Shown: piece by piece, positions 3,011 to 52,529 of the stretch
How positions within the stretch are numbered: position 1 is the stretch's first letter
How the letters are laid out: each line of letters begins with the position of its first letter
From: Bacteroidota bacterium
GTDB lineage: Bacteria; Bacteroidota; Bacteroidia; Chitinophagales; Chitinophagaceae
Length of the DNA: 64,000 nucleotides
Assembly: GCA_026391455.1 (NCBI GenBank)
Contig: JAPLEH010000008.1
Span: 1-64,000, forward strand
Direction: 5' to 3'
The notes under the pieces: generated by a model
The model's input: only the letters and a program-made list of their open reading frames with translations
What the model was told of the DNA's origin: nothing
Databases searched by the model: none
Position numbers and translations under genes: made by a program

Positions 3011-3700
3011 TCACTCAAATGGAAAATAATTTTCATGATTCATCGAAATAGGGGGAGAAAGTAGCAATGAATTAAACTCCCGAGTCAAAGTGAAATTAGC
3101 ATCTCGCGGCATTGAGATGCGTTCTGCAAAGTCGGGTTGATCCTCCAAAATAATATCGCGTACTACTCCATCAACTGAAAGCCGCGTAAGTATCGGAATA
3201 AGGCAAAGTTGTCCTGATGTGGGCAATGTGTCATCGTCCTCAAACTGCCCATAATAAAACCTTACGCCATTTGCGTTATAATAAAACATTTCGGTCAAAA
3301 GATTTTCCAAAAAATCTCTAGTGTACCACATTGATCTTGTTTCTTCACTCAATCGGCCCATTGATTTCATTTCATCAGATAACAATATATACTTCTCACT
3401 AAGGTACTTTTTTATACGCTGATTAGCTAATTGCCGTCCAATAAAATACGCGGGCATAGGCAAAATACCAGTCTTTTTAATTACGTTACCTTCTTGGCTA
3501 CTTCTATTTACACTTTCTTCTTTGTCATGTATTATACTCTCAGTAAATGATGAAGTCAATTCGTTAGCTACTTCGTGTGCTTGTTCTATATCAACCATAT
3601 AGGTTTGTACTTTTTTAATAGCCTTTTGAATGCGCAAAACTACATTGCAAAGTATTGCAGCAACAGCTATTCCAACAATAAAAACTATTTCGCCTTTCAT
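3011..3700 (-). CDS. Hypothetical protein with N-terminal membrane anchor
   Basis: Protein of 229 residues that I do not recognise. Residues 4-22 form a hydrophobic anchor, the next 40 or so are polar and helical, and the C-terminal part looks globular (blocks VRFYYGQFEDDDTLP and LPISMNHE-like end). It starts one base after the stop of the 3702-4142 gene, so the two are almost certainly co-translated and form a two-gene cassette. The stop lies about 12 bases from the 15-bp IS-end-like sequence at 2985-2999, so the original 3' end may have been altered by the insertion. Confidence 0.6.
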   Translation of the reverse strand: MKGEIVFIVGIAVAAILCNVVLRIQKAIKKVQTYMVDIEQAHEVANELTSSFTESIIHDKEESVNRSSQEGNVIKKTGILPMPAYFIGRQLANQRIKKYLSEKYILLSDEMKSMGRLSEETRSMWYTRDFLENLLTEMFYYNANGVRFYYGQFEDDDTLPTSGQLCLIPILTRLSVDGVVRDIILEDQPDFAERISMPRDANFTLTREFNSLLLSPPISMNHENYFPFE

Positions 3701-4355: not shown

Positions 4356-6185
4356 TTATTTGTGTTCATATTTTGTTTCAATTTCTGCTTTAAAGAAGTC
4401 GTCATATTTTTTGTTACCTAAATTGAAAATAACTAAATTTTTTCTTGCTCTTGTCAGTCCAGTATATATTAGTTCTGCATTTGCAAATTCTTTTTCGTCT
4501 TCTTCTTTTTCAATGAATAAAAACAATGTGTCAATTTCCCACCCTTTAAAGCTGTGAATAGTTGAAAGTTTGACAGTTCCAGTTTTCATATAAAAATGGT
4601 TCTTTCTTAATCGTCTAATTTCTTCAATTTTAGTGTTATTATCTTTGTGTTCTAAATATTCTTCTTGGCTTTCAAATGCTATTGCAGTGTTCTCGTGTTT
4701 TATAGTTCGGATTGAAAAATCTATTGCTCTTAAAATTTCTACTTTCGAACATAAAATTCCAGCGTCAGATGAATGGATTTGATTACGTTCTAAAACATTG
4801 TAAACTTTTTCAAATAAAAGGTCTGATGTAAACGAATGAAAATAATGATATTCAATTATTCTTTTCTCAAAATCAAGTTGGGACATTACTTTTAATTCGT
4901 CAGCACCATATTTAAGTCCAAAAATTGTTTTTTGAAATTTCATCGCAATGTTTCCAATGTTGCTTGCAAAACGATGTGACACATTTAATGATTTGTTCCA
5001 AACACCTGCAACTGTTCTTACAATTGGCTCGTTGTTTTCATCAAGTTCTCTTTCATAGATATTTTGTTTTTCGTCTCCAAAAACCACGAATTCTGTTTCT
5101 GAATGAGTGAAGTAAGTTGTAATAATATCTATCCAAGATTGCATATAATCTTGAATTTCATCAATTAGCACTACGTCATATTTTTTAATTTTGTCTTTCA
5201 CACTTTCAAAAAAAGAAACGTCTTGCCAAACCCCAAGGTTTTGAATTTCTAAATTGTAGTTGTTTGCTTGTGTTTTGAAAAATTGATGATAATTTGTGAT
5301 GTAAAAATTCGTCCAATTAAATTCTTCTCTTACATCACTAATTCTGTCGTGAATATAATTTTTAAGTGAAAGATTGTAAGTTAAAACTAAAATTTGGTCG
5401 TCAGTTCTTTTATAAGCATTTACAGCTCGTTTTGCCAAAACCAAAGTCTTTCCACTACCTGCAACACCTTTTATTTTTCGTCTTGGTCGTATTTCACTTC
5501 TGATTAATTCTTGCTGTTCTTTTGAATAAATTATGTTTATACCTTCTTCAATTTGATGAATTGGTGGTTTTAAGTATCGTTGAAAACTGTTGTAAAGAGT
5601 TTCGTCAAAGTAATACGATGTTTTGTTAAGCCAAAATCTTGTTAGCAAAGAATTTAGTTTGTCTTTGGTAAGTGAGTTATTACCTAAAAGTCCAAAGTAA
5701 CTTACGAATTTTTTATAAGGTTCGTCTTCTGGTTTGTTAAAGTCGTTAAGTAAAAAACTTGTCAAATTTTGTTCAGTTGCTTTGTGAAAATATACTGCAC
5801 AATTTACTGTTGCCCAATGGTTTTTACTTTTTATGCTTTTCTTAAACAGGTCTTCTAAATGTAAATGAAATAAATTTGATTTATAGTTCTCAACTTGATT
5901 TAGAGGTGATTTAATTGGTGTGTTGTCTTTTTGTAATCTCCATTTTGTTTTTTCATCTACATAATAGTGATTTAAGTTCCAGTCTTTAACTTCAATTAGC
6001 AAAACGCCACTTCCTTTTCGCATAATTGCAAAATCAGGATTGTCTCCATTAAGATATGGTTGAAAGCAAATTTCGTATGTGTCGTCTAAATTGTCCAGCA
6101 AGAAATTCAGTAAAGTCCATTCGCCTTCTGTCGGCTGGACTTTCTGTCTTTTTATTACTTCAATTGTCGGACTTAATATTGCCAT
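4356..6185 (-). CDS. NERD-like nuclease fused to SF1 (UvrD-type) helicase
   Basis: Protein of 609 residues. Residues 19-130 look like a NERD/PD-(D/E)XK nuclease with Asp51, Glu65 and Lys67 in DNPDFAI and LLIEVKDW. An SF1 motor follows: Walker A GVAGSGKT at 240-247, Walker B DEIQD at 342-346, GDEKQ, the motif V-like TIHSFKGWE and the motif VI-like YTGLTRARKNL. Family members are thought to act on DNA or RNA ends, and several similar fusions are found in defence islands; a defence role here is inference. It is AT-rich, lies between attC-like sites 5 and 4, and is the largest cargo of the array. Confidence 0.85.
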   Translation of the reverse strand: MAILSPTIEVIKRQKVQPTEGEWTLLNFLLDNLDDTYEICFQPYLNGDNPDFAIMRKGSGVLLIEVKDWNLNHYYVDEKTKWRLQKDNTPIKSPLNQVENYKSNLFHLHLEDLFKKSIKSKNHWATVNCAVYFHKATEQNLTSFLLNDFNKPEDEPYKKFVSYFGLLGNNSLTKDKLNSLLTRFWLNKTSYYFDETLYNSFQRYLKPPIHQIEEGINIIYSKEQQELIRSEIRPRRKIKGVAGSGKTLVLAKRAVNAYKRTDDQILVLTYNLSLKNYIHDRISDVREEFNWTNFYITNYHQFFKTQANNYNLEIQNLGVWQDVSFFESVKDKIKKYDVVLIDEIQDYMQSWIDIITTYFTHSETEFVVFGDEKQNIYERELDENNEPIVRTVAGVWNKSLNVSHRFASNIGNIAMKFQKTIFGLKYGADELKVMSQLDFEKRIIEYHYFHSFTSDLLFEKVYNVLERNQIHSSDAGILCSKVEILRAIDFSIRTIKHENTAIAFESQEEYLEHKDNNTKIEEIRRLRKNHFYMKTGTVKLSTIHSFKGWEIDTLFLFIEKEEDEKEFANAELIYTGLTRARKNLVIFNLGNKKYDDFFKAEIETKYEHK

Positions 6186-6219
6186 AGTTCTTGTTTGCAG
6201 TCGGGTTCGGTAAAATAAC

Positions 6220-6347
6220 AGCTAACTCATAAATATGCGAAAGTTTACACTCCCATTCAAATTCGTATTTTAACATAATTGTTTAAAATAAAATGCTTTA
6301 CAAAATCAAATTCTCCCCGCCCTCCCAATCACAAATACCCGTTAGCA
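6220..6347 (-). repeat. attC-like site 4
   Basis: A 128-bp site with AGCTAAC at 6220-6226 and GTTAGCA at 6341-6347. It aligns with attC-like site 3 (2133-2260) and like it sits just upstream, on the minus strand, of a cassette gene (4356-6185). It marks the last recognisable cassette boundary on this side. Confidence 0.45.
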
Positions 6348-6520: not shown

Positions 6521-6835
6521 GCAGGCCAGACGAACCGTGATACATGTCCGCCACTCCCTGTTTCAAGTCCGCAGCATGGTGTTGCAGGTCAGCAGCAGTG
6601 TAATACACGTCCGCCCGATGCTGATACACGCCAGATGAACCGAAATACAGGTCCGCCCGGTGCTGATGCAGGTCCGGCGCTGTCTAATACACGTCCGCCC
6701 GATGCTGATGCAGGTCCGGCGCGGGCTAATACACGTCCGCCCCATGCTAATACACGTCCGCCGCAGGCTGATGCACGTCCGGCGCACTCAACTACACGTC
6801 AAATGAACCTTGTTACAGATCCGGAGCATGGTGTT
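6521..6835. repeat. 21-bp tandem repeat, 15 units
   Basis: Fifteen consecutive 21-base units with a consensus close to ACACGTCCGCCCGATGCTGAT, at a strictly constant period from 6521 to 6835, with a partial unit before it. Because 21 is a multiple of three, all frames can stay open. One plus frame reads TRPPDAD-type heptads and one minus frame RTCISIG-type heptads. It is GC-rich against the AT-rich cassette array next to it. Neither frame has a convincing gene context, so it is annotated as a minisatellite. Positions 6836-6923 hold nothing recognisable. Confidence 0.85.
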
Positions 6836-6923
6836 GGCCGTATGTGATTTGCTGATACAGTGCGGGTGGGGTATCATTTACCTGTTTTTCAGTTGTTTGT
6901 ATTATCGTAGTATCGTATACCCA

Positions 6924-6956
6924 TAAAAAAACCCCAGAGATAGACATCCCCGGGGT
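6924..6956 (-). terminator. Intrinsic terminator of the 6981-7880 gene
   Basis: On the minus strand ACCCC and GGGGT (6931-6956) can pair, immediately followed by a run of Ts (complement of 6925-6930). It lies 25 bases beyond the stop codon. Confidence 0.65.
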
Positions 6957-6980
6957 AAACTCGAATTCCTATATTGAAAG

Positions 6981-7880
6981 CTATTTTGGTTCCATTTCTA
7001 TATCCATCACCTCGGCCTGGCCGCGGCGTATGGGCAGGGTGGCTTCCACTGGTTTGTAGCCCTCTTTTTCATACACTACCGTGGCCATACCCAGTGGCTT
7101 TGCCGGCAGGCTGTAGCTGCCATCTTGTGCAGTGCTGCCGGTGCTGTCGCCATCTTTCAGCGTTACCGATACCTGCGTCAGGGCTGCCCCGGTGGCCTTA
7201 TCGGTTACTACACCCTCCACGCGCGTTTTACGGCGGGCCGGGTTTACCAGCGAGCGCTTTGCCTTATACTCATTGTAAAACTCGGGGTGGGTAAACTGGA
7301 AGAGCAGCATCAGCGCATCCAACTGTCCGGTAAAGATCACCTGCAGTTGCTTCAGCAATTCTGCTATCTGCATTACGGCCACCTTGCGCTCCGCCGTTAC
7401 ATTGCGCGGCTTATGCATGCGGCCTGCATAGGCATCCAGCGCCGCAGCAAAATTGCTGATCAGCAGTTCCGATACGCCGTAATCCTTCAGCGGCTCAACC
7501 AACTCCTGCGCCTTCGCGAGTATATTCGCACTCTTGGCGGTCAACTCCTTGTTGGGCCCGTAGAAAAGCTCCGACACCGTAAAGTTCATCGCCTGCTTCA
7601 GCTCTGCATCTTTTTGCTGCAAGGCATACGCGCCAATGGCCGCCGCAATAGCATTGGCCTGCAGGGCCAGATCTTCCTGGTACTGGCTTTTATCTTCCGC
7701 AATTCCCTTCAGCTTCTGCGCCTTCCGCTTGTCTGCACTTTCCAGCGCATCCAGCGTGGCCTTAGCCGATTCATAAATGGTGGCAAATGCCGGCACCGTA
7801 GCGGTGATGGCTTCATTCTGTTTTAAGTGTGCCAGCGAAAGCGCATAGGCTTTGTACCTGGCCATTTGATTAGCGTTCAT
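6981..7880 (-). CDS. Hypothetical protein with C-terminal carboxypeptidase-like regulatory domain
   Basis: Protein of 299 residues without a signal peptide. Residues 1-210 are almost entirely helical, Ala/Leu/Lys-rich and unassigned. Residues 215-299 form a carboxypeptidase-regulatory-like beta-sandwich: RVEGVVTDKATGAALTQVSV, a glycine-rich DGSYSLP turn and VVYEKEGYKPVE. Such domains are common in Bacteroidota extracytoplasmic proteins, but a cytoplasmic or non-classically exported protein is implied here. Alone on its strand with its own terminator; codon use is GC-rich compared with the adjacent cassette array. Confidence 0.8.
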   Translation of the reverse strand: MNANQMARYKAYALSLAHLKQNEAITATVPAFATIYESAKATLDALESADKRKAQKLKGIAEDKSQYQEDLALQANAIAAAIGAYALQQKDAELKQAMNFTVSELFYGPNKELTAKSANILAKAQELVEPLKDYGVSELLISNFAAALDAYAGRMHKPRNVTAERKVAVMQIAELLKQLQVIFTGQLDALMLLFQFTHPEFYNEYKAKRSLVNPARRKTRVEGVVTDKATGAALTQVSVTLKDGDSTGSTAQDGSYSLPAKPLGMATVVYEKEGYKPVEATLPIRRGQAEVMDIEMEPK

Positions 7881-41010: not shown

Positions 41011-42939
41011 TTAAAGCTGTATCAATGCTTTTACTTTCCGTATCAATGGAATGAGGCTGATGAATTTGATATTGATGAATTCATAGTGGCGGGTGAGCAA
41101 TTGGGTCACGGCGGTATCTTTAAACAGAATGGCTTTATTAAAGCATTCGAGCGCTTTTTCCGAAGCTCCGGCTTTTGCATAATCCATTCCCATCCAGAGA
41201 TCCGAAATGTATTCGCCGGATTTTTTCATCACGCGATAATACTCATCTACTTCTGCTACCAGCATACTGTGATCGCGGTCGCGGTAAAAGCGAACCAGCC
41301 CGGGGTTTTCTGCTTTTTCCGCCGCAGTGATCGCTTCTTCTTTTCGATTGAAATACCAATAGAGCCTTGACAAATTGGTATACCGTTGTTTTTGCATAGT
41401 AGGATCATATGCGGTACGGGTAATGAGTTCATGCTGCAGGCGTATGGCTTCCTCCTGATCATTATTGGCCGCCAGTGCATTGATTTTATTCTGAATAAGA
41501 TAATCCCAGGAGGCATTGATCTCACTTCCCTGATTGAATATCTTCATCGCTTCATCTTTCTCCCCTTTTGCTTCCAGTAAAATACTCAGCCAGAGGTATA
41601 CGTTGGATTGATTGGCATCCATGGCGATAGAAGTGCGGTAGCTTTTTTCCGCTTCTGCCCATTCGAAGTTTTGATGATACCAGTATCCGAGTGAAGCCTG
41701 AATTTCTCCGGAATAGGCATCGAGTGAAAGGGCAGTATCGATATGATTTTTGGCCACCATCAGCATGATGCCGGGATCCTGGTAGCCGCGGTACGATGCC
41801 AGTAAATATGTATTGGCCAAGCCCGCATATGCGATCGCAAAATTGGGATCTTTATTGACGGCCTGCTGAAAGAGTTCGCGTGCAATGAGCAGATCGGTGC
41901 GGTTTCTTTTTTCCACCAAAAATTTACCGCGCAGGTACAGATCATAGGCCTGCATATCCTGTGTAGGTTTATCACCCAGATTGGTATTTTCGTTTTGCGA
42001 TATCTCTGTATTCAGTACGGCAGCAATAGCTATGGCCACTTCCCGCTGTATGGAAAAGATATCATCAAAAGAACGGTCGTAGGATTCGGCCCAGCGGTGT
42101 TCATCGGTCTTTGCATTAATGAGCTGTGCCGTAATACGTACCTGCTGACCATGACGCTGTACACTGCCCTCGAGAATGAAGGCCACGCCCAATTCGGCCC
42201 CGATCTCCGTTACCGGCTTAGGGTTATTCTTATATTGCATAACCGAAGTGCGGGAGATCACTTTCAGTGATTTTATTTTCGACAATTGTGTGATGATATC
42301 TTCGGTAAGCCCGTCACTGAAATATTCCTGCTGCTGATCGCTGCTCATATTCGCAAAAGGAAGCACTGCAATTCCATTTTCTGCAATGGGTTTGGGTGCC
42401 ACTTTGCTGAGGTCCAATTTTGGCGTTACAGGTTTACTATAGGGAGTGATGAGCTCATAAATGCGAACAGGTTCCTTCACATTTTTCAGTACCTCTTTTC
42501 CGATGAGTACCGACTCCAGCCCCGTTTTATTGGTAATGTTGATTGATACCATTTCGGAAATATAAATGCCGCCGGCGGGGGCCAATGCCTGAATGCGGGA
42601 TGCGATATTCACTACATCGCCGAATACATTTCCATCGTGCAACAGGACATCTCCCATATGAATACCGATACGCACCGGCACATGTGGGTCTTCGTGCAGA
42701 TCGGTTTGCAGTAATTTGGCAAATTCGGCCGCATCGGTTGCACTCCTGAAAAGTAACAGGGAGCCATCGCCATAGTACTGAACCATTTTACCTTCCAGTT
42801 CCTCCGCGATAGCTTCCAGCGAATGCCTGAATCGGTTGATTTTTTCCACGGCATCCATTTCATCTTTCTGCATCATTGCAGTATAACCAACTACGTCCGC
42901 AAAAACGATTGCAGCGAGTTGGTGTGTATTCTCCGACAT
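41011..42939 (-). CDS. Class III adenylate cyclase with C-terminal TPR domain
   Basis: Protein of 642 residues. Cyclase domain at about residues 8-170: AIVFADVVGYTAMM and VQYYGDGSLLLF carry the two metal-binding Asp residues, and GIHMGDVLLHDGNVFGDVVNIASRI is the typical central block. A linker leads to a FlgO/TolB-like domain (IAVLPFANMSSDQQ, YFSDGLTEDIITQL) and about six TPR units to the C-terminus. The combination is common in soil bacteria. It would make cAMP in response to an unknown signal; no receptor gene is adjacent. Confidence 0.93.
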   Translation of the reverse strand: MSENTHQLAAIVFADVVGYTAMMQKDEMDAVEKINRFRHSLEAIAEELEGKMVQYYGDGSLLLFRSATDAAEFAKLLQTDLHEDPHVPVRIGIHMGDVLLHDGNVFGDVVNIASRIQALAPAGGIYISEMVSINITNKTGLESVLIGKEVLKNVKEPVRIYELITPYSKPVTPKLDLSKVAPKPIAENGIAVLPFANMSSDQQQEYFSDGLTEDIITQLSKIKSLKVISRTSVMQYKNNPKPVTEIGAELGVAFILEGSVQRHGQQVRITAQLINAKTDEHRWAESYDRSFDDIFSIQREVAIAIAAVLNTEISQNENTNLGDKPTQDMQAYDLYLRGKFLVEKRNRTDLLIARELFQQAVNKDPNFAIAYAGLANTYLLASYRGYQDPGIMLMVAKNHIDTALSLDAYSGEIQASLGYWYHQNFEWAEAEKSYRTSIAMDANQSNVYLWLSILLEAKGEKDEAMKIFNQGSEINASWDYLIQNKINALAANNDQEEAIRLQHELITRTAYDPTMQKQRYTNLSRLYWYFNRKEEAITAAEKAENPGLVRFYRDRDHSMLVAEVDEYYRVMKKSGEYISDLWMGMDYAKAGASEKALECFNKAILFKDTAVTQLLTRHYEFINIKFISLIPLIRKVKALIQL

Positions 42940-43153: not shown

Positions 43154-44449
43154 TTATAATTCAACCGGTTTCAACATCAGGCGCTCCCAGCCGGCATATT
43201 TATTTTTGAGCAGTTGTACTTTTTTAGGGTAAATCGTAAGCAGGTTGTTTTTTTCACCCGGGTCTGCATTGAGGTCAAAGAGAAATTCGCCTTCTTCTGT
43301 CATGATCCATTTCCACTTGCCGTGGCGTATGGCTTTTTGATGAAACTCCTGGGAGAGTCTCCAGTAAAATGTACGGGGCTTTATTTTTTTGATATTGCTT
43401 AAATACGGAAGCAGATTGATTCCATCCAGCGGAAATGCAGGATCTGCTTTTGCATGGGCGGCTGCCAGGATGGTGGCGGTCCAATCCATAGTAATGGCGG
43501 GCTGCAAACTCACACTACCTGCATGCAGTTGACCGGCCCATCGTACAATAGCCGGTTCACGGATACCCCCATCACATACGGTTTCTTTTTTCCCGCGGTA
43601 TATGCCCATGTCCGAAAATTCCTCTCCCCCATTATCACTGGTAAATATGATGAGGGTATTTTTCGAAAGACCATTGCTATCCACGGCCGCGATGATCCGG
43701 CCCACTGCTTCATCCAGGCTTTTTACCATGGCAGCAAACCGGGAAGGGGTGCCGCCCTTATGCCAGTTGAGGGTATCCGGATAAGCCGGATCATTCGGTC
43801 CTTGCCAGGGCCAGTGTGGTGCATTGAATTGTACACTCAGGAAGAATGGGCGCTGGTGCGTCTGCCGGATCAGGCTCACTACTTTGTCGGCCCATATATC
43901 CGTGAGATAACCATTACGTATAACCGGGGTTTCATTTTCATAGAGGTCGGGTATTCCTTTGGGATTTTTGTGCGATACATAATCGATGCCTCCGGCATTG
44001 AAGCCAAAAAAATAATCAAATCCATTTTTATTCGGACTGTATTTGGGGTCATAGCCAAGATGCCATTTACCTACCAGGTATGTTTCATATCCCGCTTTCC
44101 GCAACAACGTCGGAAGCGAAGTGTAGTCAGGGGTGAGCCCCACGATACTGTCTTTATGCCCCCAGCGCAATGGTTCCATTAACCCAACCGGTGTACGGGC
44201 GGGGTAACGACCGGTCATGAACGAAGTACGGGTGGGTGTACAAAGCGGTGCTCCGGCATAGGCATTCATCAGTTTCACCCCTTGCTCTGCCAAGTGGTCG
44301 AGGTGCGGTGTGCTGTACTCTTTCCGGCCATAACAACTGAGGTCTGCATAACCGAGATCGTCGGCCATGATGTAGATGATGTTGGGTTTTTGCTGGGCAG
44401 CGAGAAAATAAGAAAGCAACAAAAGATGCAGCATGAATAGAAATTTCAT
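43154..44449 (-). CDS. Type I (FGly) sulfatase
   Basis: Protein of 431 residues with a signal peptide (first 18 residues). Metal site DDLGYADLSC at residues 28-37. The FGly motif CTPTRTSFMTGR contains the Cys that a maturase converts to formylglycine. NAPHWPWQGP and FTSDNGGEEF supply further site residues. Such sulfatases remove sulfate from glycans or other esters in the periplasm or outside. The maturase is not in the window. Confidence 0.93.
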   Translation of the reverse strand: MKFLFMLHLLLLSYFLAAQQKPNIIYIMADDLGYADLSCYGRKEYSTPHLDHLAEQGVKLMNAYAGAPLCTPTRTSFMTGRYPARTPVGLMEPLRWGHKDSIVGLTPDYTSLPTLLRKAGYETYLVGKWHLGYDPKYSPNKNGFDYFFGFNAGGIDYVSHKNPKGIPDLYENETPVIRNGYLTDIWADKVVSLIRQTHQRPFFLSVQFNAPHWPWQGPNDPAYPDTLNWHKGGTPSRFAAMVKSLDEAVGRIIAAVDSNGLSKNTLIIFTSDNGGEEFSDMGIYRGKKETVCDGGIREPAIVRWAGQLHAGSVSLQPAITMDWTATILAAAHAKADPAFPLDGINLLPYLSNIKKIKPRTFYWRLSQEFHQKAIRHGKWKWIMTEEGEFLFDLNADPGEKNNLLTIYPKKVQLLKNKYAGWERLMLKPVEL

Positions 44450-44731: not shown

Positions 44732-44971
44732 ATGAAGACATTACAATCAATGGAGCTTTCAAAAAAAGAAATGAAAGAAGTAAAAGGGGCCTATTGGCAA
44801 CTCGGTTCTGTAAATACAAAAGCATGGGGTGATGGCACCAATGGAGCTGACACCTATCTTGACGGCATGTATGCAGGACACGACAACCCATCCGGAACAC
44901 TTGGTGGAGACAGTTGGAGATTTTTTGGTACTTCTGTGCCACAACAGCCCCCCGTGATACGAATAATGTAA
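44732..44971 (+). CDS. RiPP precursor peptide 1
   Basis: Precursor of 79 residues. Leader SMELSKKEMKEVKGA is shared with the other four, and cleavage after Ala20 would give a core of 59 residues. The core differs most from the rest: it has KAWGDGTNGADTYLDG, MYAGHDNPSGTLGGDSW and a proline-rich end (PQQPPVIRIM). It keeps the same Asp/Ser/Thr positions as the paralogs. Intergenic spacing to the next precursor is 68 bases, longer than between 2, 3 and 4. Confidence 0.85.
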   Translation: MKTLQSMELSKKEMKEVKGAYWQLGSVNTKAWGDGTNGADTYLDGMYAGHDNPSGTLGGDSWRFFGTSVPQQPPVIRIM

Positions 44972-45039
44972 CATACCTGCATTCATAACAGCAGGGGAAA
45001 ATTATTCATTTTATTTAATCACCCATAAAATAGTAAAAC

Positions 45040-45282
45040 ATGAAATCATTACAATCAATGCAGCTTTCAAAAAAAGAAATGAAAGAAGTAAAAGGAGCCC
45101 GATGGGTAGTTGGGGCTAATACGGAAGCCTGGGGCGACGGAAGTAATGGAGCCACGACACTTTTGGATGGCGTGCCCTGGACTCATGACAATTCTTCCGG
45201 CAGCCTTTTTGGCGACAGTTGGGCTTATTACAGAACGGCTGTGGTAACAGAGCCGGGTACATTGAAGATCAGCAAAAAATAA
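45040..45282 (+). CDS. RiPP precursor peptide 2
   Basis: Precursor of 80 residues. Leader as in the others to Ala20. Core has NTEAWGDGSNGATTLLDG, then PWTHDNSSGSLFGDSW and AYYRTAV, ending KISKK. It is nearly identical to precursor 3 (six or so differences in the core), the two forming a recent duplication with a 282-base unit that includes the 39-base spacer. Confidence 0.85.
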   Translation: MKSLQSMQLSKKEMKEVKGARWVVGANTEAWGDGSNGATTLLDGVPWTHDNSSGSLFGDSWAYYRTAVVTEPGTLKISKK

Positions 45283-45321
45283 CATCACACAACCATTTTC
45301 CCATACATAAAAACAACAACT

Positions 45322-45564
45322 ATGCAGACCCTCCAATCAATGCAACTCTCCAAAAAAGAAATGAAAGAAGTAAAAGGTGCCCGCTGGGTAGTAGGATCCA
45401 ACACGGAAGCCTGGGGTGACGGAAGTAATGGAGCTACGACACTCCTCGATGGTGATCCTATAGGGCACGACAACTCATCCGGCAGCCTTTTTGGTGACAG
45501 TTGGGCTTATTACAGAACCGCGGTGATATCTGAACCCGGCACACTGAAGATCAGCAAGAAATAA
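45322..45564 (+). CDS. RiPP precursor peptide 3
   Basis: Precursor of 80 residues. Core with NTEAWGDGSNGATTLLDG, DPIGHDNSSGSLFGDSW and AYYRTAVISEPGTLKISKK-type end. Differences from precursor 2 cluster in the segment between LDG and HD (PWT versus PIG) and just after the leader. Spacers on both sides are almost identical (CACACAACCATTTT motif). Confidence 0.85.
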   Translation: MQTLQSMQLSKKEMKEVKGARWVVGSNTEAWGDGSNGATTLLDGDPIGHDNSSGSLFGDSWAYYRTAVISEPGTLKISKK

Positions 45565-45603
45565 CTTCACACAACCATTTTTCCATACATAAAAACAACA
45601 ACT

Positions 45604-45849
45604 ATGCAGACCCTCCAATCTATGCAACTCTCCAAAAAAGAAATGAAAGAAGTAAAAGGTGCCCGCTGGATCGTTGGCGATAATACCTCCGCGTATGGCG
45701 ACGGAAGCAATGGCGCTACCACCTACCTGGATGGCATGAACATCGGGCATGACGCTTCATCCGGAAGTCTTGCCGGCGACAGTTGGGCCTATTTCAGAAC
45801 AGCCGTAGAACCTCAGGCTGGTGTTTTGAAACTCACATCCCGTAAATAA
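45604..45849 (+). CDS. RiPP precursor peptide 4
   Basis: Precursor of 81 residues. Core has NTSAYGDGSNGATTYLDG (Tyr in place of Trp), MNIGHDASSGSLAGDSW, AYFRTAV and a divergent C-terminus (EPQAGVLKLTSRK). It shares the 5' spacer and first codons with precursor 3. The Trp-to-Tyr change shows that this aromatic site tolerates substitution while all Asp, Ser and Thr ring candidates are kept. Confidence 0.85.
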   Translation: MQTLQSMQLSKKEMKEVKGARWIVGDNTSAYGDGSNGATTYLDGMNIGHDASSGSLAGDSWAYFRTAVEPQAGVLKLTSRK

Positions 45850-45928
45850 ACATTGTAACCGGTCATTTAAATATTGACCCGGTAAGTATTGATTTCAACC
45901 CCTTTTTGTAAAACAAAAAATCATCAAC

Positions 45929-46171
45929 ATGGAATCATTATCATCAATGCAACTCTCGAAAAAAGAAATGAAAGAAGTAAAAGGTGCTTACTGGATTACA
46001 GGAGCTAATACTGCGGCCTGGGGCGATGGCAGCAACGGCTCGTCTACCTACCTCGATGGCATGCCGATCGGCCAGGACGGATCTTCCGGAACGCTGGAAG
46101 GTGATAGCTGGAGATACTATGCCACACTGAGTGTACCCCAACAGGGCGTTTTGAAAGTGTCCAGGAAATAA
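45929..46171 (+). CDS. RiPP precursor peptide 5
   Basis: Precursor of 80 residues. Leader begins MESLSSMQ but then keeps LSKKEMKEVKGA. Core has NTAAWGDGSNGSSTYLDG, MPIGQDGSSGTLEGDSW (Gln in place of the His before Asp) and a PQQGVLKVSRK end. The longer 79-base spacer before it and a terminator-like hairpin 20 bases after it set it at the end of the precursor group. Confidence 0.85.
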   Translation: MESLSSMQLSKKEMKEVKGAYWITGANTAAWGDGSNGSSTYLDGMPIGQDGSSGTLEGDSWRYYATLSVPQQGVLKVSRK

Positions 46172-46190
46172 CCCCGGGAATTTCTGTAAA

Positions 46191-46227
46191 AAAAAGAGAT
46201 TGCTATCTACATGCAATCTCTTTTTTT
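46191..46227 (+). terminator. Terminator-like hairpin between precursors and maturase genes
   Basis: AGAGATTGC and GCAATCTCT pair perfectly (extendable through A/T pairs) with a TATCTACAT loop, followed by TTTTTTTC. It lies between the last precursor and the ATP-grasp gene 38 bases further on. Partial read-through would make precursor mRNA more abundant than enzyme mRNA. Confidence 0.8.
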
Positions 46228-46264
46228 CACACCTAACATTTAGTCCTGACTAAACACATCATTT

Positions 46265-47236
46265 ATGGTTCTCATTAACAGCATTGGAGGAGACGTAAGT
46301 ACGACCGATATTATGCGGTGGCTCCGCCATTTTGGTATGCCCGCTCTGCGCCTCAGTGAGAAAGATCAAATTACAAATGTACTGTTGGGAGAAAACAACA
46401 GCTTTGAGATTACGATCAATAACAATATCAGCGTCCGGTCGGATGCTTTACGGAGTTATTGGTACAGAAGAGGGCAGCTCAATATTGCAGTAATCGGCAA
46501 AGCCGGAAAAAAAATAAATTCAGTGCTTCAACAGGAAACTGATCATTACCTGAGAAATGATCATGCCATTCTGCTTACATTTATTTACAATGAGCTGGCC
46601 AAAAAAAAACATATTGGAAGTTTTGACCGATGCACTTTTGTAAACAAGCTGGTCAATCTTTCGAAGGCAGAATCGGCAGGACTACTCACTCCGCGTACAA
46701 TCGTTACAGGATCCCGGAAAGAGTTACTTCAATTCATTTCGGAGTGCAAACAGGTAATTACCAAGCCCGTAGCCGAAAGCTTTTATTATCATAGCGGGAA
46801 TTACTGGTTGCCTTCGTATACAAAAACAATTACCGCTGCTGCTGCACGCAGATTGCCCTCCGCGTTCGGCCATTCACTTTTTCAGCAACGAATTGAAAAA
46901 AAAATAGAGATCCGTTCATTTTATCTGAATGGCCAATTCAGCAGCATGGCCATCTTTTCTCAAAATGACAGCAAAACAACAGACGACTTCAGGGATTATA
47001 ATTATGAAAAACCCAACCGCGTGGTTCCCTATCAGTTGCCCCGGATGATCGAAGAAAAACTTGATTTAGTGATGAGAGACCTCGCCTATGAATCGGGTTC
47101 GATTGACATTTTACTCGACCCGTCCGGGCAATACTATTTTCTTGAAATTAACCCGGTGGGACAATTTGGCTTTTTATCTCTGCAGTGTAACCATAAAATT
47201 GAAAAAAAAATCGCCCAATATTTAGCCGATGAGTGA
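46265..47236 (+). CDS. ATP-grasp peptide maturase (grasp-with-spasm type)
   Basis: Protein of 323 residues, the length of graspetide ligases. The ATP-binding site is marked by KQVITKPVAESFYY and the C-terminal EINPVGQFGFLS, where the Glu and Asn bind magnesium. SIGGDVSTTDIM at the N-terminus matches the precursor-recognising region of this class. It would activate Asp/Glu side chains as acyl phosphates and join them to Ser/Thr or Lys. The stop overlaps the start of the next gene (ATGAGTGA). Confidence 0.88.
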   Translation: MVLINSIGGDVSTTDIMRWLRHFGMPALRLSEKDQITNVLLGENNSFEITINNNISVRSDALRSYWYRRGQLNIAVIGKAGKKINSVLQQETDHYLRNDHAILLTFIYNELAKKKHIGSFDRCTFVNKLVNLSKAESAGLLTPRTIVTGSRKELLQFISECKQVITKPVAESFYYHSGNYWLPSYTKTITAAAARRLPSAFGHSLFQQRIEKKIEIRSFYLNGQFSSMAIFSQNDSKTTDDFRDYNYEKPNRVVPYQLPRMIEEKLDLVMRDLAYESGSIDILLDPSGQYYFLEINPVGQFGFLSLQCNHKIEKKIAQYLADE

Positions 47237-47441
47237 GCAAAAAATGGCCAAAGAACTGGCCGCCTTACAAAAAAACAACCCTTTTCTGCCGGCCATGTTT
47301 CATTTTATGAAACCCCGGCGGCGTGAATATTACCTGCGCAGTCATAAAAAAGCCAGGATGATCAACATAGATCAGTATGGCACCAAAGAATTCATTGTAA
47401 AACCATTCTATAAAAAAATATCCAGAATATACCATGGTTGA
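47229..47441 (+). CDS. Small conserved-looking protein between the two maturases
   Basis: Protein of 70 residues, very basic and aromatic (FHFMKPRRREYYLRSHKKARM), without a signal peptide or membrane helix. It overlaps the ATP-grasp gene by eight bases at its start and the SPASM gene by eight at its end, so it is translated as part of the unit. I do not recognise it. A role as an adaptor for the leader or maturases is possible; it might equally be a non-essential spacer ORF, but the double overlap argues for a real gene. Confidence 0.65.
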   Translation: MSEQKMAKELAALQKNNPFLPAMFHFMKPRRREYYLRSHKKARMINIDQYGTKEFIVKPFYKKISRIYHG

Positions 47442-48465
47442 ATATGATAAATATATCATACTGTTTGCCAATTGTATTCTTTGCAAAGGCGCCAGCCGGA
47501 CGATGTTGTATGATCCGCAACGCAACGACTACGAATTACTCCCAAACGAACTATATGACGTGCTGACAACCTCCGGAAGAGAACGCACCGCAGGTGAAAT
47601 TGCGGCCCATTTCAATGAGGAAGACCGGCATCATTTTGATGAATACCTGCATTTCCTTCATAAAAAAGAATATATTTTTTTCTGTACCCGGGAAGAGTTA
47701 GACTGCTTTCCGCAAATTGATGATGAATGGGAATGGCCGGCTCTGATCACCAATGCGATCATTGATGTACGAAAAAACAGCAAGCATAATTTAAAAAAAA
47801 TATTCGGGGAGCTGGATGAACTGGGCTGCGAACACTTGCAAATAAGATGTTACGATCCATTACCTCTCTTTTTTTTCCAAAAAAACCTGGCATATCTATA
47901 TGGCACGATCATCAATAATGTGGAGTTGCTGGTATGTTACAACCCAAAAGAGGCTGACAACGTTACCTTCTATAGTCCTTTATTGAATTATGGAAGTATC
48001 AGTTCATTGGTTGTACACAGTGCTCCTGTTGAAAAGCGTATTGCACAAAAGACAGACCAACAATTTATCTCAGTAAAAGAAGAGATCACCGGGGAACATC
48101 ATTGCGGCCTCATCGGAGAGAAGTATTTTTCACTTACCCTGCCACATATACTGGAATCTAAAACCCGGAATACCTGCCTGCATAAAAAAATATCGGTAGA
48201 TGCAGAAGGTCATATCAGGAATTGTCCGAGCCTTCCCCAATCATATGGCCATGTGCGTACCGATAGCCTGGTGGAAGTGGTTAAAGAGGGAAAAATAAAA
48301 GAACTATGGGACCTGCATAAAGGGCAGGTGGAAGTATGCAGAGACTGTGAATTCCGGATGATCTGCACCGATTGCAGGGCTTACCGCAGTGCTGAAAACA
48401 TTTATTCCAAACCTGGCAAATGCAATTACGATCCTTATACGAATACCTGGGGCAACCAGAGCTGA
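47434..48465 (+). CDS. SPASM-domain peptide maturase (no radical-SAM triad)
   Basis: Protein of 343 residues. The N-terminal part shows LFANCILCKGASRTMLYD with CxxC but no CxxxCxxC radical-SAM motif. The C-terminal SPASM region has NTCLHKKISVDAEGHIRNCPS, then CRDCEFRMICTDCRAY and a last Cys in KCNYDPY, enough for two iron-sulfur clusters. In grasp-with-spasm loci this protein accompanies the ATP-grasp enzyme and may bind precursor or hold the clusters. It could act as a partner rather than a catalyst; the sequence cannot decide. Confidence 0.85.
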   Translation: MVEYDKYIILFANCILCKGASRTMLYDPQRNDYELLPNELYDVLTTSGRERTAGEIAAHFNEEDRHHFDEYLHFLHKKEYIFFCTREELDCFPQIDDEWEWPALITNAIIDVRKNSKHNLKKIFGELDELGCEHLQIRCYDPLPLFFFQKNLAYLYGTIINNVELLVCYNPKEADNVTFYSPLLNYGSISSLVVHSAPVEKRIAQKTDQQFISVKEEITGEHHCGLIGEKYFSLTLPHILESKTRNTCLHKKISVDAEGHIRNCPSLPQSYGHVRTDSLVEVVKEGKIKELWDLHKGQVEVCRDCEFRMICTDCRAYRSAENIYSKPGKCNYDPYTNTWGNQS

Positions 48466-48480
48466 TAACCGTAATCGACT

Positions 48481-50709
48481 ATGGCTAAATCGAAATTTTC
48501 ATTTTATCATCAGACAGCATTTACTGACTGCGGCCCCGCCTGTCTGAAAATGATTGCCCTTTATTATGGTAAACAGATCCGGATAGAGACTCTCCGGCAT
48601 TTGAGCGGTATTGCAAAGGATGGTGTGAGCCTGCTGGGAATAGCAGAAGCCGCCGAACAAACCGGCTTTGAAGCCTCAGGTGTACGCCTGACCTATGAGC
48701 AGCTTTTCTCTCTTGGAAATTTTCCCTGCATTGCCCATTGGGAGCAAAATCATTTCGTCGTTATTGTGAATAAAGCCGGTTCCACCATTTTAGTTGCAGA
48801 CCCGGGCAAAGGAATGTTAGAACTCAGCGAGAAAGAATTTCTGAGCAAATGGCTGGCTGAAGACAGTACTGCGGAATCAGGTAAAGGGATTGTGCTGCTG
48901 CTGAAGCCAGGCAAAGCGTTCTTTGAAAGGCCGGATGAAAAAGATACCCAAACCGGGTGGGGAGTTTTGTTGCGTTATCTTGTCAATTACCGCAAATACA
49001 TTATACAGGTTATTCTCGGGTTACTAATTGCCAGCCTGCTTCAATTGGTGATTCCGTTGTTAACAAAACTGATAGTGGATAAAGGAATCGGGGGTAAAAA
49101 CCTGTCCTTGATCTATCTCGTAGTGATCGCTCAATTTGCGCTCATGCTTAGCAGAACGGGCGTTGAATTTTTGCGAAGCAGAATACTCTTATTTATCAGT
49201 ACCCGGATCAGCCTTACCATATTGTCTGATTTCTGGACAAAAATGCTTCGGCTACCCCTATCATTTTACGACACTAAAATGAGCGGAGATGTAATGCAGC
49301 GTGTGGGAGATCAAAAGCGGATTGAAAATTTCCTTACCGGCAGTACTCTGAATATTTTATTCTCCCTGTTTACACTGGCTATGTTCTCAGTTTTGTTTCT
49401 GCTGTACAACTGGCGAATCTACCTCATATTTATGGGTGCCACCGTACTCTATTTTTTCTGGATCCGTTATTTTTTACGCAGCCGAAGAAAGATTGATTTC
49501 GAGCAATTTGATACCGGGGCCAGGGAGAATACAGCCACTATCGAGCTGATTCAGGGCATGCAGGACATAAAATTATATAATGCCGAAAACTATTTCCGTT
49601 GGAAGTGGGAAGAAATACAGGTTAGTTCGTTTCGGCTCACATACAAAAGCCTATCTCTCAGCCAGCGACAGGAAGCCGGTGCGCTGCTTATTAATGAAGG
49701 AAAGAACATTATCATCACGCTGCTGGCGGCCACTGCTGTGGTAAATAATGAAATGTCACTGGGAGCCATGGTAGCCATGCAGTATATTCTGGGACAAGTA
49801 TCTTCGCCGGTTGATCAACTCGTTGCATTCTCGCAGCATGCTCAGGATGCGGGCATCAGTTTGGAACGATTTTCTGAGATCAATGCACAGGCCGATGAAG
49901 AACACCCAGATGCGGTATATGAAAATGATTTGTCTGGCGGACGTTCCATTCATATCCGCAATCTTTATTTTAAATATCCCGGAGCGGGTAATGACTATGT
50001 TTTAAAGAACTTTTCACTCGAAATTCCTGAAAACAAAATCACTGCAATCGTGGGTATGAGCGGCAACGGCAAAACGACATTGCTTAAGCTCCTGTTGCGG
50101 TTTTATCAGCAATATGAAGGCAGTATCACCGTGGGCAACGGTAATATCCCTTTTGAAAAAATAGCACCTTCTTTCTGGAGAAGCCATTGCGGCAGTGTAC
50201 TGCAGGATAGTTATATTTTCAATGAAAGTATCAGAAAAAATATAGCAGTAGGTGAAACGGAAGCAGATGAAGAAAAATTACTGCAGGCCTGCAAAGTTGC
50301 CAATATAGCTGATTATATTCTTTCGCTTCCTCAACAATTCGATACAAAGATAGGTCCGGAAGGGTCCGGCATCAGCGGTGGGCAGAAACAGCGGATACTC
50401 ATTGCCAGGGCCGTATACCGTTCACCTGCATTCATTTTTTTTGACGAAGCCACGAACTCACTAGACGCCAATAATGAGAACCTTATTCTGAAACATCTGC
50501 AATCCTTCTTCCGGGACAGAACTGTTGTTATCGTTGCCCACCGGATGAGCACCATTAAGCATGCAGATAAAATAGTGGTGATTGAAAATGGTGAAGTGGC
50601 CGAAGAAGGCACGCATAGCGAACTGCTTGATTTACATAGCAAATACTACCAGCTTATTAAAAATCAAATGAATGACGATAATATTTATAAAAGTGAACTG
50701 AACATTTGA
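48481..50709 (+). CDS. Peptidase-containing ABC transporter (C39 protease plus exporter)
   Basis: Protein of 742 residues. The C39 domain at residues 1-130 has FTDCGPACLKM with Cys17 as nucleophile (Gln11 upstream), IAHWEQNHFVVI with the catalytic His and VADPGKG with the Asp. Six membrane helices span roughly 170-430. The ATPase has GMSGNGKTTLLKL, ISGGQKQRILIARA and FIFFDEATNSLD. It would cut the leader after the Gly19-Ala20 site of the precursors and export the modified core. Confidence 0.95.
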   Translation: MAKSKFSFYHQTAFTDCGPACLKMIALYYGKQIRIETLRHLSGIAKDGVSLLGIAEAAEQTGFEASGVRLTYEQLFSLGNFPCIAHWEQNHFVVIVNKAGSTILVADPGKGMLELSEKEFLSKWLAEDSTAESGKGIVLLLKPGKAFFERPDEKDTQTGWGVLLRYLVNYRKYIIQVILGLLIASLLQLVIPLLTKLIVDKGIGGKNLSLIYLVVIAQFALMLSRTGVEFLRSRILLFISTRISLTILSDFWTKMLRLPLSFYDTKMSGDVMQRVGDQKRIENFLTGSTLNILFSLFTLAMFSVLFLLYNWRIYLIFMGATVLYFFWIRYFLRSRRKIDFEQFDTGARENTATIELIQGMQDIKLYNAENYFRWKWEEIQVSSFRLTYKSLSLSQRQEAGALLINEGKNIIITLLAATAVVNNEMSLGAMVAMQYILGQVSSPVDQLVAFSQHAQDAGISLERFSEINAQADEEHPDAVYENDLSGGRSIHIRNLYFKYPGAGNDYVLKNFSLEIPENKITAIVGMSGNGKTTLLKLLLRFYQQYEGSITVGNGNIPFEKIAPSFWRSHCGSVLQDSYIFNESIRKNIAVGETEADEEKLLQACKVANIADYILSLPQQFDTKIGPEGSGISGGQKQRILIARAVYRSPAFIFFDEATNSLDANNENLILKHLQSFFRDRTVVIVAHRMSTIKHADKIVVIENGEVAEEGTHSELLDLHSKYYQLIKNQMNDDNIYKSELNI

Positions 50710-51233
50710 TGATGAATATCAACATACATAACAATGACATTCCGGATAAGGTGAAAGATGAAAGAAGCAGCGTGCTTCATTCGTATATTTCAGAAAACCA
50801 GCCTTTTTATATCCGCTGGGGGATGTTTGCGGTGGCCGGCCTGATCATCATTATCATCGTTACCTCCCTGTTGATACGGGTACGTGCTGAAACTTTGTTG
50901 AATGGCCGTCTTACCATACTTACACCACCGGCCAACCCATTGCAGCCAGAAGCGGAAATAATCATAGCCGGTAAGCAACCTGCTTTATGTGCGTTAAAAC
51001 CTGGTGAAAAAATCAGGCTTAGTATACCCGTCAAACCGGAGGGTGACCGTTTACATTTGAATAGTCGTGTTCAACAAAATTATTGCGGTGAAATCAACAG
51101 GCTGAAACTTGCCCTCGACACCGGCGGGCTGGCTACCTTTTTAAAGGAGTGGGATAAAAAACCCGGTGAACCTGTGCAGATACAATTCAAAAGTGGCCGG
51201 GTGTCTCTTTTTTCTTACCTGTACAGAATGTAG
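50709..51233 (+). CDS. Short HlyD-like membrane protein
   Basis: Protein of 174 residues, starting at the ATGATG that overlaps the exporter stop (TGATG). One membrane helix spans residues 35-58. The periplasmic part has a few beta-strand motifs (PGEKIRLSIPV) as in HlyD family adaptors, but the long coiled-coil hairpin of about 200 residues is absent. Either a minimised adaptor or a new accessory. Position after the exporter supports export function. The next gene, 60 bases away, is probably outside the locus. Confidence 0.7.
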   Translation: MMNINIHNNDIPDKVKDERSSVLHSYISENQPFYIRWGMFAVAGLIIIIIVTSLLIRVRAETLLNGRLTILTPPANPLQPEAEIIIAGKQPALCALKPGEKIRLSIPVKPEGDRLHLNSRVQQNYCGEINRLKLALDTGGLATFLKEWDKKPGEPVQIQFKSGRVSLFSYLYRM

Positions 51234-51293: not shown

Positions 51294-52529
51294 ATGGCCA
51301 GATTCTTTATTCTTCCCGCAGCCGGAATAATAGCAGCATTAAGCACGCATTGTGTGAACAGGGCTTCTACTACCAATGAAATTCCCAGTAGCGATACTTC
51401 GAAGCTTCCGCCGGTGGAAGTACAAAAGCCCAATACCAATTATAAATCTGCCGTTGGCGGGCAAACCAGGATCGGCGCTGTAAAGACATCCACTCCCTAT
51501 AAAGTAGAAAAGATAGCAGATAAACTCGATCGTCCCTGGGCGATTATCCCTATGCCGGATGGAAGCCTGCTGGTGAATCATAAGTCAGGTTATATGCAAA
51601 TCTTTACCAGCCAGGGCAAACTGGTTAAAAAGATCACAGGTTTACCGGCCGTTGATGACGGAGGCCAGGGCGGCTTACTTGATGTGACATTGGATCCGCA
51701 ATACGCAAAAAACAATACCATTTACTGGAGTTTTTCAGAAAAACAGGGACGCGGCAATCTCATGGCCGTAGCCAAAGGACAGTTGAATGTAACGGCAGGA
51801 ACCGTTGACAACCCGACTGTCATCTTCAGGGCCACCCCTGCACTGAACAGTAATCTGCATTTTGGTTCAAGATTGCTATTCGATAAGAATGGTTACCTGT
51901 TTGTAAGTACAGGCGAACGATCTATTCTCGAAGGAAGGGCCCAGGCACAATTGCTGAGCTCCGGATTAGGTAAGATATTCCGTATTACCAAAGAGGGCAA
52001 ACCTGCTCCGGGCAATCCCTTTGTCAACCAGGCTGGTGCCATGCCCGAAATATATGCGTATGGTGTCCGCAATCCGCAAAGTCTGGATATACACCCGGTA
52101 ACCGGTGAACTATGGGAAGCTGAATTCGGACCACGTGGTGGCGATGAGCTTAATATCATCAAAGCAGGAAAGAACTATGGCTGGCCCGTTATCACTTATG
52201 GCCTCGAATACAGCGGCAAACCCATTGGAGATGCCATTCAGCAAAAAGCAGGAATGGAACAACCCGTTTATTACTGGGATCCGGTGCTCTCCCCCAGTGG
52301 CATGGTCTTTTATAAGGGCAATGCTATTCCCGAATGGAAAAACAATCTTTTTATCTGCGGGCTCAGCAGCGCTCATATCGCACGACTGGTGATCGTCAAT
52401 AATAGAGTGGTGGGTGAAGAGCGATTGCTCGAAGATAAGCGTGACCGCTTCCGGGATGTGGCGTATCAGAATGGTGAACTGTATACTGTGACCGATTCGG
52501 GGGCGATGTATAAGATCAGTAAGAAATGA
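51294..52529 (+). CDS. PQQ-dependent sugar (glucose/sorbosone) dehydrogenase-like protein
   Basis: Protein of 411 residues with an N-terminal signal. A beta-propeller of the GSDH type is marked by LDRPWAIIPMPDGSLLV, GGQGGLLDVTLDPQYAKN, RNPQSLDIHPVTGELWEAEFGPRGGDELN and YYWDPVLSPSGMVFY, carrying the PQQ-binding Arg and Asp positions. It oxidises aldoses or similar compounds in the periplasm. Monocistronic; nothing ties it to the RiPP locus except proximity. Confidence 0.9.
   Translation: MARFFILPAAGIIAALSTHCVNRASTTNEIPSSDTSKLPPVEVQKPNTNYKSAVGGQTRIGAVKTSTPYKVEKIADKLDRPWAIIPMPDGSLLVNHKSGYMQIFTSQGKLVKKITGLPAVDDGGQGGLLDVTLDPQYAKNNTIYWSFSEKQGRGNLMAVAKGQLNVTAGTVDNPTVIFRATPALNSNLHFGSRLLFDKNGYLFVSTGERSILEGRAQAQLLSSGLGKIFRITKEGKPAPGNPFVNQAGAMPEIYAYGVRNPQSLDIHPVTGELWEAEFGPRGGDELNIIKAGKNYGWPVITYGLEYSGKPIGDAIQQKAGMEQPVYYWDPVLSPSGMVFYKGNAIPEWKNNLFICGLSSAHIARLVIVNNRVVGEERLLEDKRDRFRDVAYQNGELYTVTDSGAMYKISKK

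Follow-up and report, generated by a model that had tools for sequence, protein, structure and literature searches.

Background

The gene cluster described here lies at positions 44732-51233 of a 64,000-nucleotide stretch of DNA (the window) from a Bacteroidota bacterium of the Chitinophagaceae (assembly GCA_026391455.1, contig JAPLEH010000008.1, positions 1 to 64,000). It contains five tandem genes for related precursor peptides, followed by the genes for an ATP-grasp ligase and a SPASM-domain protein, an arrangement called grasp-with-spasm. We consider it likely that this is a graspetide cluster whose peptides carry three conserved macrolactones, with the SPASM protein and a small protein of the LPL type acting as non-catalytic partners of the ligase, and with export through a C39 transporter.

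The closest described systems are the graspetides of 'branch 5', already in print (Makarova 2022, PMC8939145). As in branch 5, the present locus belongs to the Bacteroidota, combines an ATP-grasp ligase with a TIGR04193 protein and a small protein encoded directly upstream of the SPASM gene, and has its precursor genes ahead of the ligase gene; in branch 5 these precursors are often multiple and diverse. The differences lie elsewhere. Conserved cysteines are typical of branch 5 precursors, whereas the precursor cores in the window have none; the SPASM protein of branch 5 is treated as a radical S-adenosylmethionine (radical-SAM) enzyme, whereas the motif is missing here in every sequence examined; and the core in the window matches no library family above cut-off. 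According to the same source, the small proteins encoded directly upstream of branch 5 SPASM genes form the LPL family, and a protein of its cluster 23 occurs in almost all branch 5 loci. The sequence features of the ligase, the SPASM protein and the small protein place our cluster in branch 5. It probably also corresponds to graspetide 'group 14', which was defined by a published sequence-similarity network (Carter 2026, PMC13097080); 24 graspetide groups are credited to Ramesh 2021 by the citing literature. As the class is already published, only the core family is new. No characterised grasp-with-spasm product was found in the open-licence papers searched, none of which uses the term 'grasp-with-spasm' itself, while TIGR04193 appears in one of them; the covered portions of Makarova 2022 and Carter 2026 contain no characterised product of branch 5 or group 14.

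Two other described systems share parts of this arrangement. In the rosaritide system of Micromonospora, the graspetide synthetase MirB yielded no product without its partner MirC, whose N-terminal domain weakly resembles a RiPP recognition element (RRE; RiPP, ribosomally synthesised and post-translationally modified peptide). MirC, however, is a PpiC/SurA-like and not a SPASM protein, and the rosaritide core differs from ours (Carter 2026). The chryseoviridin ligase CdnC (structure 7mgv) is related to the ligase in the window and likewise comes from a Bacteroidota locus with several precursors; its precursors are of another family, and the passages covered in PMC8939145 describe no SPASM partner for it.

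The gene cluster

Read along the forward strand, the cluster consists of the five precursors, the ATP-grasp ligase, a small open reading frame (ORF), the SPASM gene, a C39 exporter and a short membrane protein. The precursor and enzyme-set genes are as follows (aa, amino acids):

44732..44971, + strand: precursor 1, 79 aa; leader residues 1-20, predicted core from 44792
45040..45282, + strand: precursor 2, 80 aa; predicted core from 45100
45322..45564, + strand: precursor 3, 80 aa; predicted core from 45382
45604..45849, + strand: precursor 4, 81 aa; predicted core from 45664
45929..46171, + strand: precursor 5, 80 aa; predicted core from 45989
46265..47236, + strand: ATP-grasp graspetide synthetase, 323 aa; TIGR04192, 279.2 bits (cut-off 230)
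47229..47441, + strand: small accessory protein of the LPL type, 70 aa; shares 8 bases with the ligase gene and 8 with the SPASM gene
47434..48465, + strand: SPASM-domain protein, 343 aa; TIGR04193, 299.2 bits (cut-off 175); lacks CxxxCxxC

Adjacent genes that exceed the cut-offs of both equivalog models, TIGR04192 and TIGR04193, identify a grasp-with-spasm locus. These matches and the five ORFs bear out the first-pass annotation of the window, which had proposed a graspetide-type RiPP locus of this kind, in which one enzyme set serves several precursors. Its list of the genes after the precursors was right for the ligase, the SPASM protein and the C39 exporter, and overlooked the 70-aa ORF; the strong hairpin ahead of the ligase had likewise escaped notice.

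For comparison we used the window, 38 loci (L057-L094, of which L057 is from the window's own genome) and 79 further loci (L095-L173), these being the best 79 of 545 candidate genome-contig stretches that encode a SPASM-protein relative. By script, 117 ligase-SPASM pairs were located in this material, the window included and with at least one duplicate (L061 and L133); SPASM ORFs shorter than 280 aa, among them the split frames of L085 and L088, were excluded, and L076 yielded no ligase. Counting the window's own genome, TIGR04193 had matches in 16 of 195 genomes of the family and 30 of 395 of the phylum, with 12 above the cut-off in either set.

Precursors and the conserved core

The precursors are 62-64% identical to the first copy, and their alignment has 39 invariant columns. 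The common leader segment SKKEMKEVKGA, already pointed out in the first reading of the sequence, is identical in all five. The leader pattern L9-S10-x-x-E13-M14-x-x-V17-x-G19-A20 is one that we take to be of the double-glycine type. Two leader models stayed below their cut-offs: TIGR04149 scored 13.5 and 14.4 bits (cut-off 25) for the two precursors listed, and NF047798 scored 16-17 bits (cut-off 23.5) for all five.

Across core residues 21-68 the pooled proportion of synonymous differences (pS) is 0.76, near saturation, and that of nonsynonymous differences (pN) is 0.23; the ratio of nonsynonymous to synonymous substitution rates (dN/dS) is 0.09 in the leader and a looser 0.32 after position 68. 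With synonymous sites of the core near saturation and the leader so constrained, the conservation is not due to chance, and selection holds the amino acids in place. Diversifying selection on the core found no support, since pN was lower than pS in all ten core pairs. The looser region past residue 68 might be taken to mean that some precursors are decayed or unexpressed, leaving only one or two products, but the five copies are all intact and retain leader and core, and pN below pS in every core pair speaks against decay as well. We regard such a loss as improbable; one enzyme set probably makes five related, ring-closed peptides.

The first-pass annotation had noted that the cores resemble no familiar product, and no NCBIfam or Pfam family reached its cut-off for them. 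The full-length precursor alignment (A1) found no relative among genome contigs, a set that possibly lacks the window's own genome, and matched 1 of 394 genomes of the family, which was the window's own. A profile of the core (A4) matched 1 of 396 genomes of the order, again the window's own, and 2 of 395 of the class, namely the same genome and one marginal match (E 4.5e-4); the three genome sets overlap. We rejected the marginal match, which falls within a 407-aa open frame unlike a precursor. When run on the ORFs of the comparison loci, the core profile recovered three relatives (E 3.5e-8 to 5.2e-8), all from metagenome-assembled genomes (MAGs) of Bacteroidia and each 56-70 bases upstream of a ligase gene:

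L102:7477-7731: core relative
L107:1150-1404: core relative
L108:7433-7687: core relative

The core family thus looks new and rare. The leaders of the three relatives differ from those in the window and end in GG. Because the ligase and SPASM proteins of L107 and L108 are near-identical, these loci amount to two independent core comparisons rather than three. In quick trees, the window's ligase groups with those of L102, L107, L108, L129 and L109 (SH-aLRT 96), and its SPASM protein with those of L102, L107, L108, L129 and L167 (SH-aLRT 91). The core relatives thus share both groupings, so that the enzyme set and the core type appear to travel together. The L129 locus begins 160 bases before its ligase, and a precursor therefore cannot be seen there; L109 belongs to the ligase group, yet has a different kind of precursor; and the ligase row of L167 is partial, near a contig start. 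A short core ending in TTYIDGMNMGED was found in L100 (core profile E 0.0062), but as the L100 ligase lies outside the window's group, it is counted only as a possible distant core relative.

Thirteen positions are invariant in all eight cores, those of the window and of the three relatives: G25, T29, G33, T41, D44, G45, D51, S54, G55, L57, G59, D60 and W62; position 56 is Ser or Thr throughout. All eight cores thus retain three candidate acceptors, Asp44, Asp51 and Asp60, and four candidate donors, Thr29, Thr41, Ser54 and Ser/Thr56. The window cores contain no cysteine in any of the five copies, which excludes Cys-based thioethers for them, and in four of the five lysine is at the C-terminus only; lactones are therefore likelier than lactams. 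In the mechanism that we propose, the double-glycine-type leader would be borne by all five precursors, and the ligase would phosphorylate core Asp side chains and close macrolactones with Ser or Thr. Three esters (-54 Da), pairing the three Asp residues with donors among the four named, are predicted on the ground that Asp44, Asp51 and Asp60 are kept in the relatives and Asp34 is not, the latter being replaced there by Pro, Thr and Pro. Asp34 may form a fourth ester in the window peptides. The five natural core variants and the three remote homologues narrow the candidate ring positions.

The motifs GDG(S/T)NG, LDG, (H/Q)D, SG(S/T)L and GDSW had been called invariant at their acidic and hydroxyl positions. 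This holds for the five copies in the window; in the three remote relatives the Asp of GDG(S/T)NG is lost and the Ser of GDSW is not always retained, position 61 being Ser, Ile and Arg. The GDG(S/T)NG motif presumably resembles calcium-loop motifs, and columns of Gly and other residues are no less conserved than the Asp/Ser/Thr columns. Both points would suit peptides that are exported largely linear and bind metals or act as signals, the ligase having some other substrate. The three relatives, however, lack GDG(S/T)NG although their precursors stand directly upstream of a ligase, and they retain the order precursor, ligase, small ORF, SPASM gene. Linear export thus seems very unlikely to us, and ring-closed peptides are the better reading of the core.

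The five copies also differ in which partner is closest for leader and for core DNA. Between copies 3 and 4, the preceding spacers match at 37 of 39 bases and the leaders at 59 of 60, whereas the cores match at only 96 of 141; copies 1 and 2 agree in 56 of 60 leader bases and 84 of 141 core bases; and the cores most alike are those of copies 2 and 3 (114 of 141 bases), with leaders alike at 50 of 60. Such a pattern would be explained if leaders and cores had been reassorted, or if leaders had been converted between copies.

The ligase and its proposed partner proteins

The relatives of the ligase with solved structures are 7m4s (AMdnB), 5ig8, 5ig9, 7mgv (CdnC) and 9bou, CdnC being matched with an E value of 2.3e-15. 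Across 39 ligases, from the window and loci L057-L094, the ATP-site residues K167, Q207, E215, R217, D281 and N296 are present in every one, D241 and E294 in 38, and R243 in 36. A DFR motif has been named as critical (Carter 2026), and the window ligase carries D-F-R at 241-243.

The first reading of the sequence had spoken of two maturases, the SPASM protein being one, a claim that is now doubtful. The SPASM protein scores 28.6 bits with TIGR04085 (cut-off 27); Pfam SPASM (PF13186) matches 45 of 70 members of the family alignment A5 and not the window's own protein. The cysteines of a SPASM domain are in place in the window protein (248, 264, 302, 305, 311, 314 and 330), which may bind clusters. 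The A5 alignment includes close relatives; there, CxxCx5CxxC occurs in 68 of 70 rows, and the seven cysteines in 67-70 of 70. The radical-SAM motif CxxxCxxC occurs in none of these 70 rows, nor in any of 37 rows longer than 300 aa in a largely separate set whose rows had not been selected for similarity to the window. As the motif is missing in all rows, we read the SPASM protein as a non-catalytic partner. In the 37-row set, Cys302, 305, 311 and 330 are kept in 35 rows and Cys224, 248, 264 and 314 in only 25, so that the family includes a subfamily poorer in cluster ligands (12 of 37 rows). Loss of cluster ligands in part of the family fits a structural role better than a catalytic one.

One might still argue for the SPASM protein as a second maturase in its own right, adding a further modification, such as an oxidation or a C-C or C-O link, by means of iron-sulfur clusters and with no radical-SAM site. 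Besides the seven SPASM cysteines, 67-70 of the 70 A5 rows also retain Cys14, Cys132 and Cys224, more than a pure scaffold seems to need, and Makarova 2022 takes the peptides of branch 5 to be modified by SPASM enzymes. Radical-SAM chemistry is, however, not to be expected where CxxxCxxC is missing throughout; the four cysteines absent from 12 of 37 rows show that cluster ligands are not essential family-wide; and the window cores offer no Cys for a thioether. We consider a second maturase unlikely. The supposed radical maturase is more likely a helper.

The 70-aa protein fits the LPL family as published (Makarova 2022), by its position and by the type of its motif. Under a permissive rule, the gap between ligase and SPASM gene holds an ORF of 40-130 aa in 115 of the 117 pairs, the window included, although in L060 the ORF picked is in the wrong frame and a 66-aa candidate is present; in L146 and L106, which have no gap ORF, the SPASM frame as called extends back across the gap. 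Pro21 and a C-terminal K-x-I-S (P21, K62, I64, S65; a FYKPISK-like motif) are kept in at least 90% of 57 aligned rows. Together with the SPASM protein, it would act with the ligase, presenting the precursor or activating the ligase.

A more specific possibility is a three-protein machine in which the radical-SAM-less SPASM protein and the LPL-type peptide jointly bind the leader and activate the ligase in trans. We put this forward tentatively, as somewhat less probable than not. If true, recognition would be split from catalysis, so that one ligase serves five precursors here and unrelated ones in sister loci. The locus makes the roles of the motif-less SPASM protein and of the LPL-type protein directly testable.

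Several observations weigh against our interpretation. The small protein is poorly conserved, the window copy being 15-35% identical to the others (closest to the L102 and L107 copies, 35% each). For an RRE, an hhalign comparison of the SPASM protein with five PqqD sequences scored 15.15, a value exceeded by 2 of 40 shuffled profiles. Among the 25 fixed columns of the window cores, Asp/Glu/Ser/Thr columns are kept in the relatives in 7 of 11 cases and other columns in 7 of 14 (Fisher p 0.69). Conservation alone thus does not single out ester sites, and the three-ester call stays a prediction.

An RRE fold in the N-terminal 98 residues of the SPASM protein looked promising by eye, but profile comparisons gave no supported match; PqqD is absent from the 25 Pfam families listed, of 53, for the 70 SPASM members.

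The exporter and the pre-ligase hairpin

Three further features complete the cluster:

48481..50709, + strand: C39-peptidase ABC exporter, 742 aa; Peptidase_C39 (3.5e-34), ABC_membrane (1.1e-29), ABC_tran (8.3e-26)
about 50709..51233, + strand: membrane protein, about 174 aa; hydrophobic N-terminal stretch; first ATG overlaps the exporter stop
46189..46227, + strand: terminator-like hairpin with a T-rich 3' arm, between the last precursor and the ligase

The exporter would cleave after Gly19-Ala20 and export cores of 59-61 residues. By analogy with the class, the peptides may serve in competition or protease inhibition. The last gene had been described as short and HlyD-like. An ORF is indeed there, but the HlyD identity has behind it only weak phmmer matches to three ORFs of relatives (E 0.002, 0.021 and 0.044), with no NCBIfam family and nothing above cut-off in Pfam. 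Two of the matched ORFs (L073, L139) have a similar W-G and transmembrane N-terminus, and the protein may be an HlyD-type adaptor in shortened form.

The three loci whose precursors are related have an ORF of 580-602 aa next to the exporter (L102:12353-14098, L107:3712-5454, L108:9995-11803). Pfam finds a CarboxypepD_reg-like domain in the L102 and L108 copies; that of L107, scanned with NCBIfam only, had no NCBIfam match.

The hairpin at 46189-46227 has a folding energy of -20 kcal/mol and a z score of -7.84 on a stretch chosen around it, and no shuffle out of 200 reached its stability. Over the full 160 bases that precede the ligase, the z score is -4.0. It was not listed by the consensus scan. 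Hairpins stand at the equivalent place in six hand-picked relatives, including L102, L107 and L108, but 114 loci compared with 110 control upstream regions showed no family-wide enrichment (median z -0.87 versus -0.82, p 0.68). The hairpin is therefore a local feature of the window rather than a rule of the family. It may limit the expression of the enzymes relative to that of the precursors, in the manner of an attenuator.

Neighbouring genes and other loci

The genes flanking the cluster have no evident link to it:

43154-44449, - strand: Sulfatase (Pfam)
51294-52529, + strand: GSDH, glucose/sorbosone dehydrogenase (Pfam)
41011-42939, - strand: Guanylate_cyc with TPR repeats (Pfam)

The window's genome contains a second grasp-with-spasm locus (L057, G000:C9:172000-185674), whose ligase falls elsewhere in the tree. 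On the opposite strand to its enzyme genes, a 70-aa double-glycine ORF with Cys may be the precursor of this second locus. Coordinates within L057 are:

5248-6276, - strand: SPASM protein
6535-7602, - strand: ligase
3310-3522, opposite strand: 70-aa double-glycine ORF

Six grasp-with-spasm loci, namely L105, L113, L146, L148, L149 and L110, come from MAGs that carry other phylum labels, five of them Acidobacteriota and one Gemmatimonadota. The ligase tree places five of the six in one group, which also takes in one Bacteroidota row, and puts L149 elsewhere; transfer or binning error is possible.

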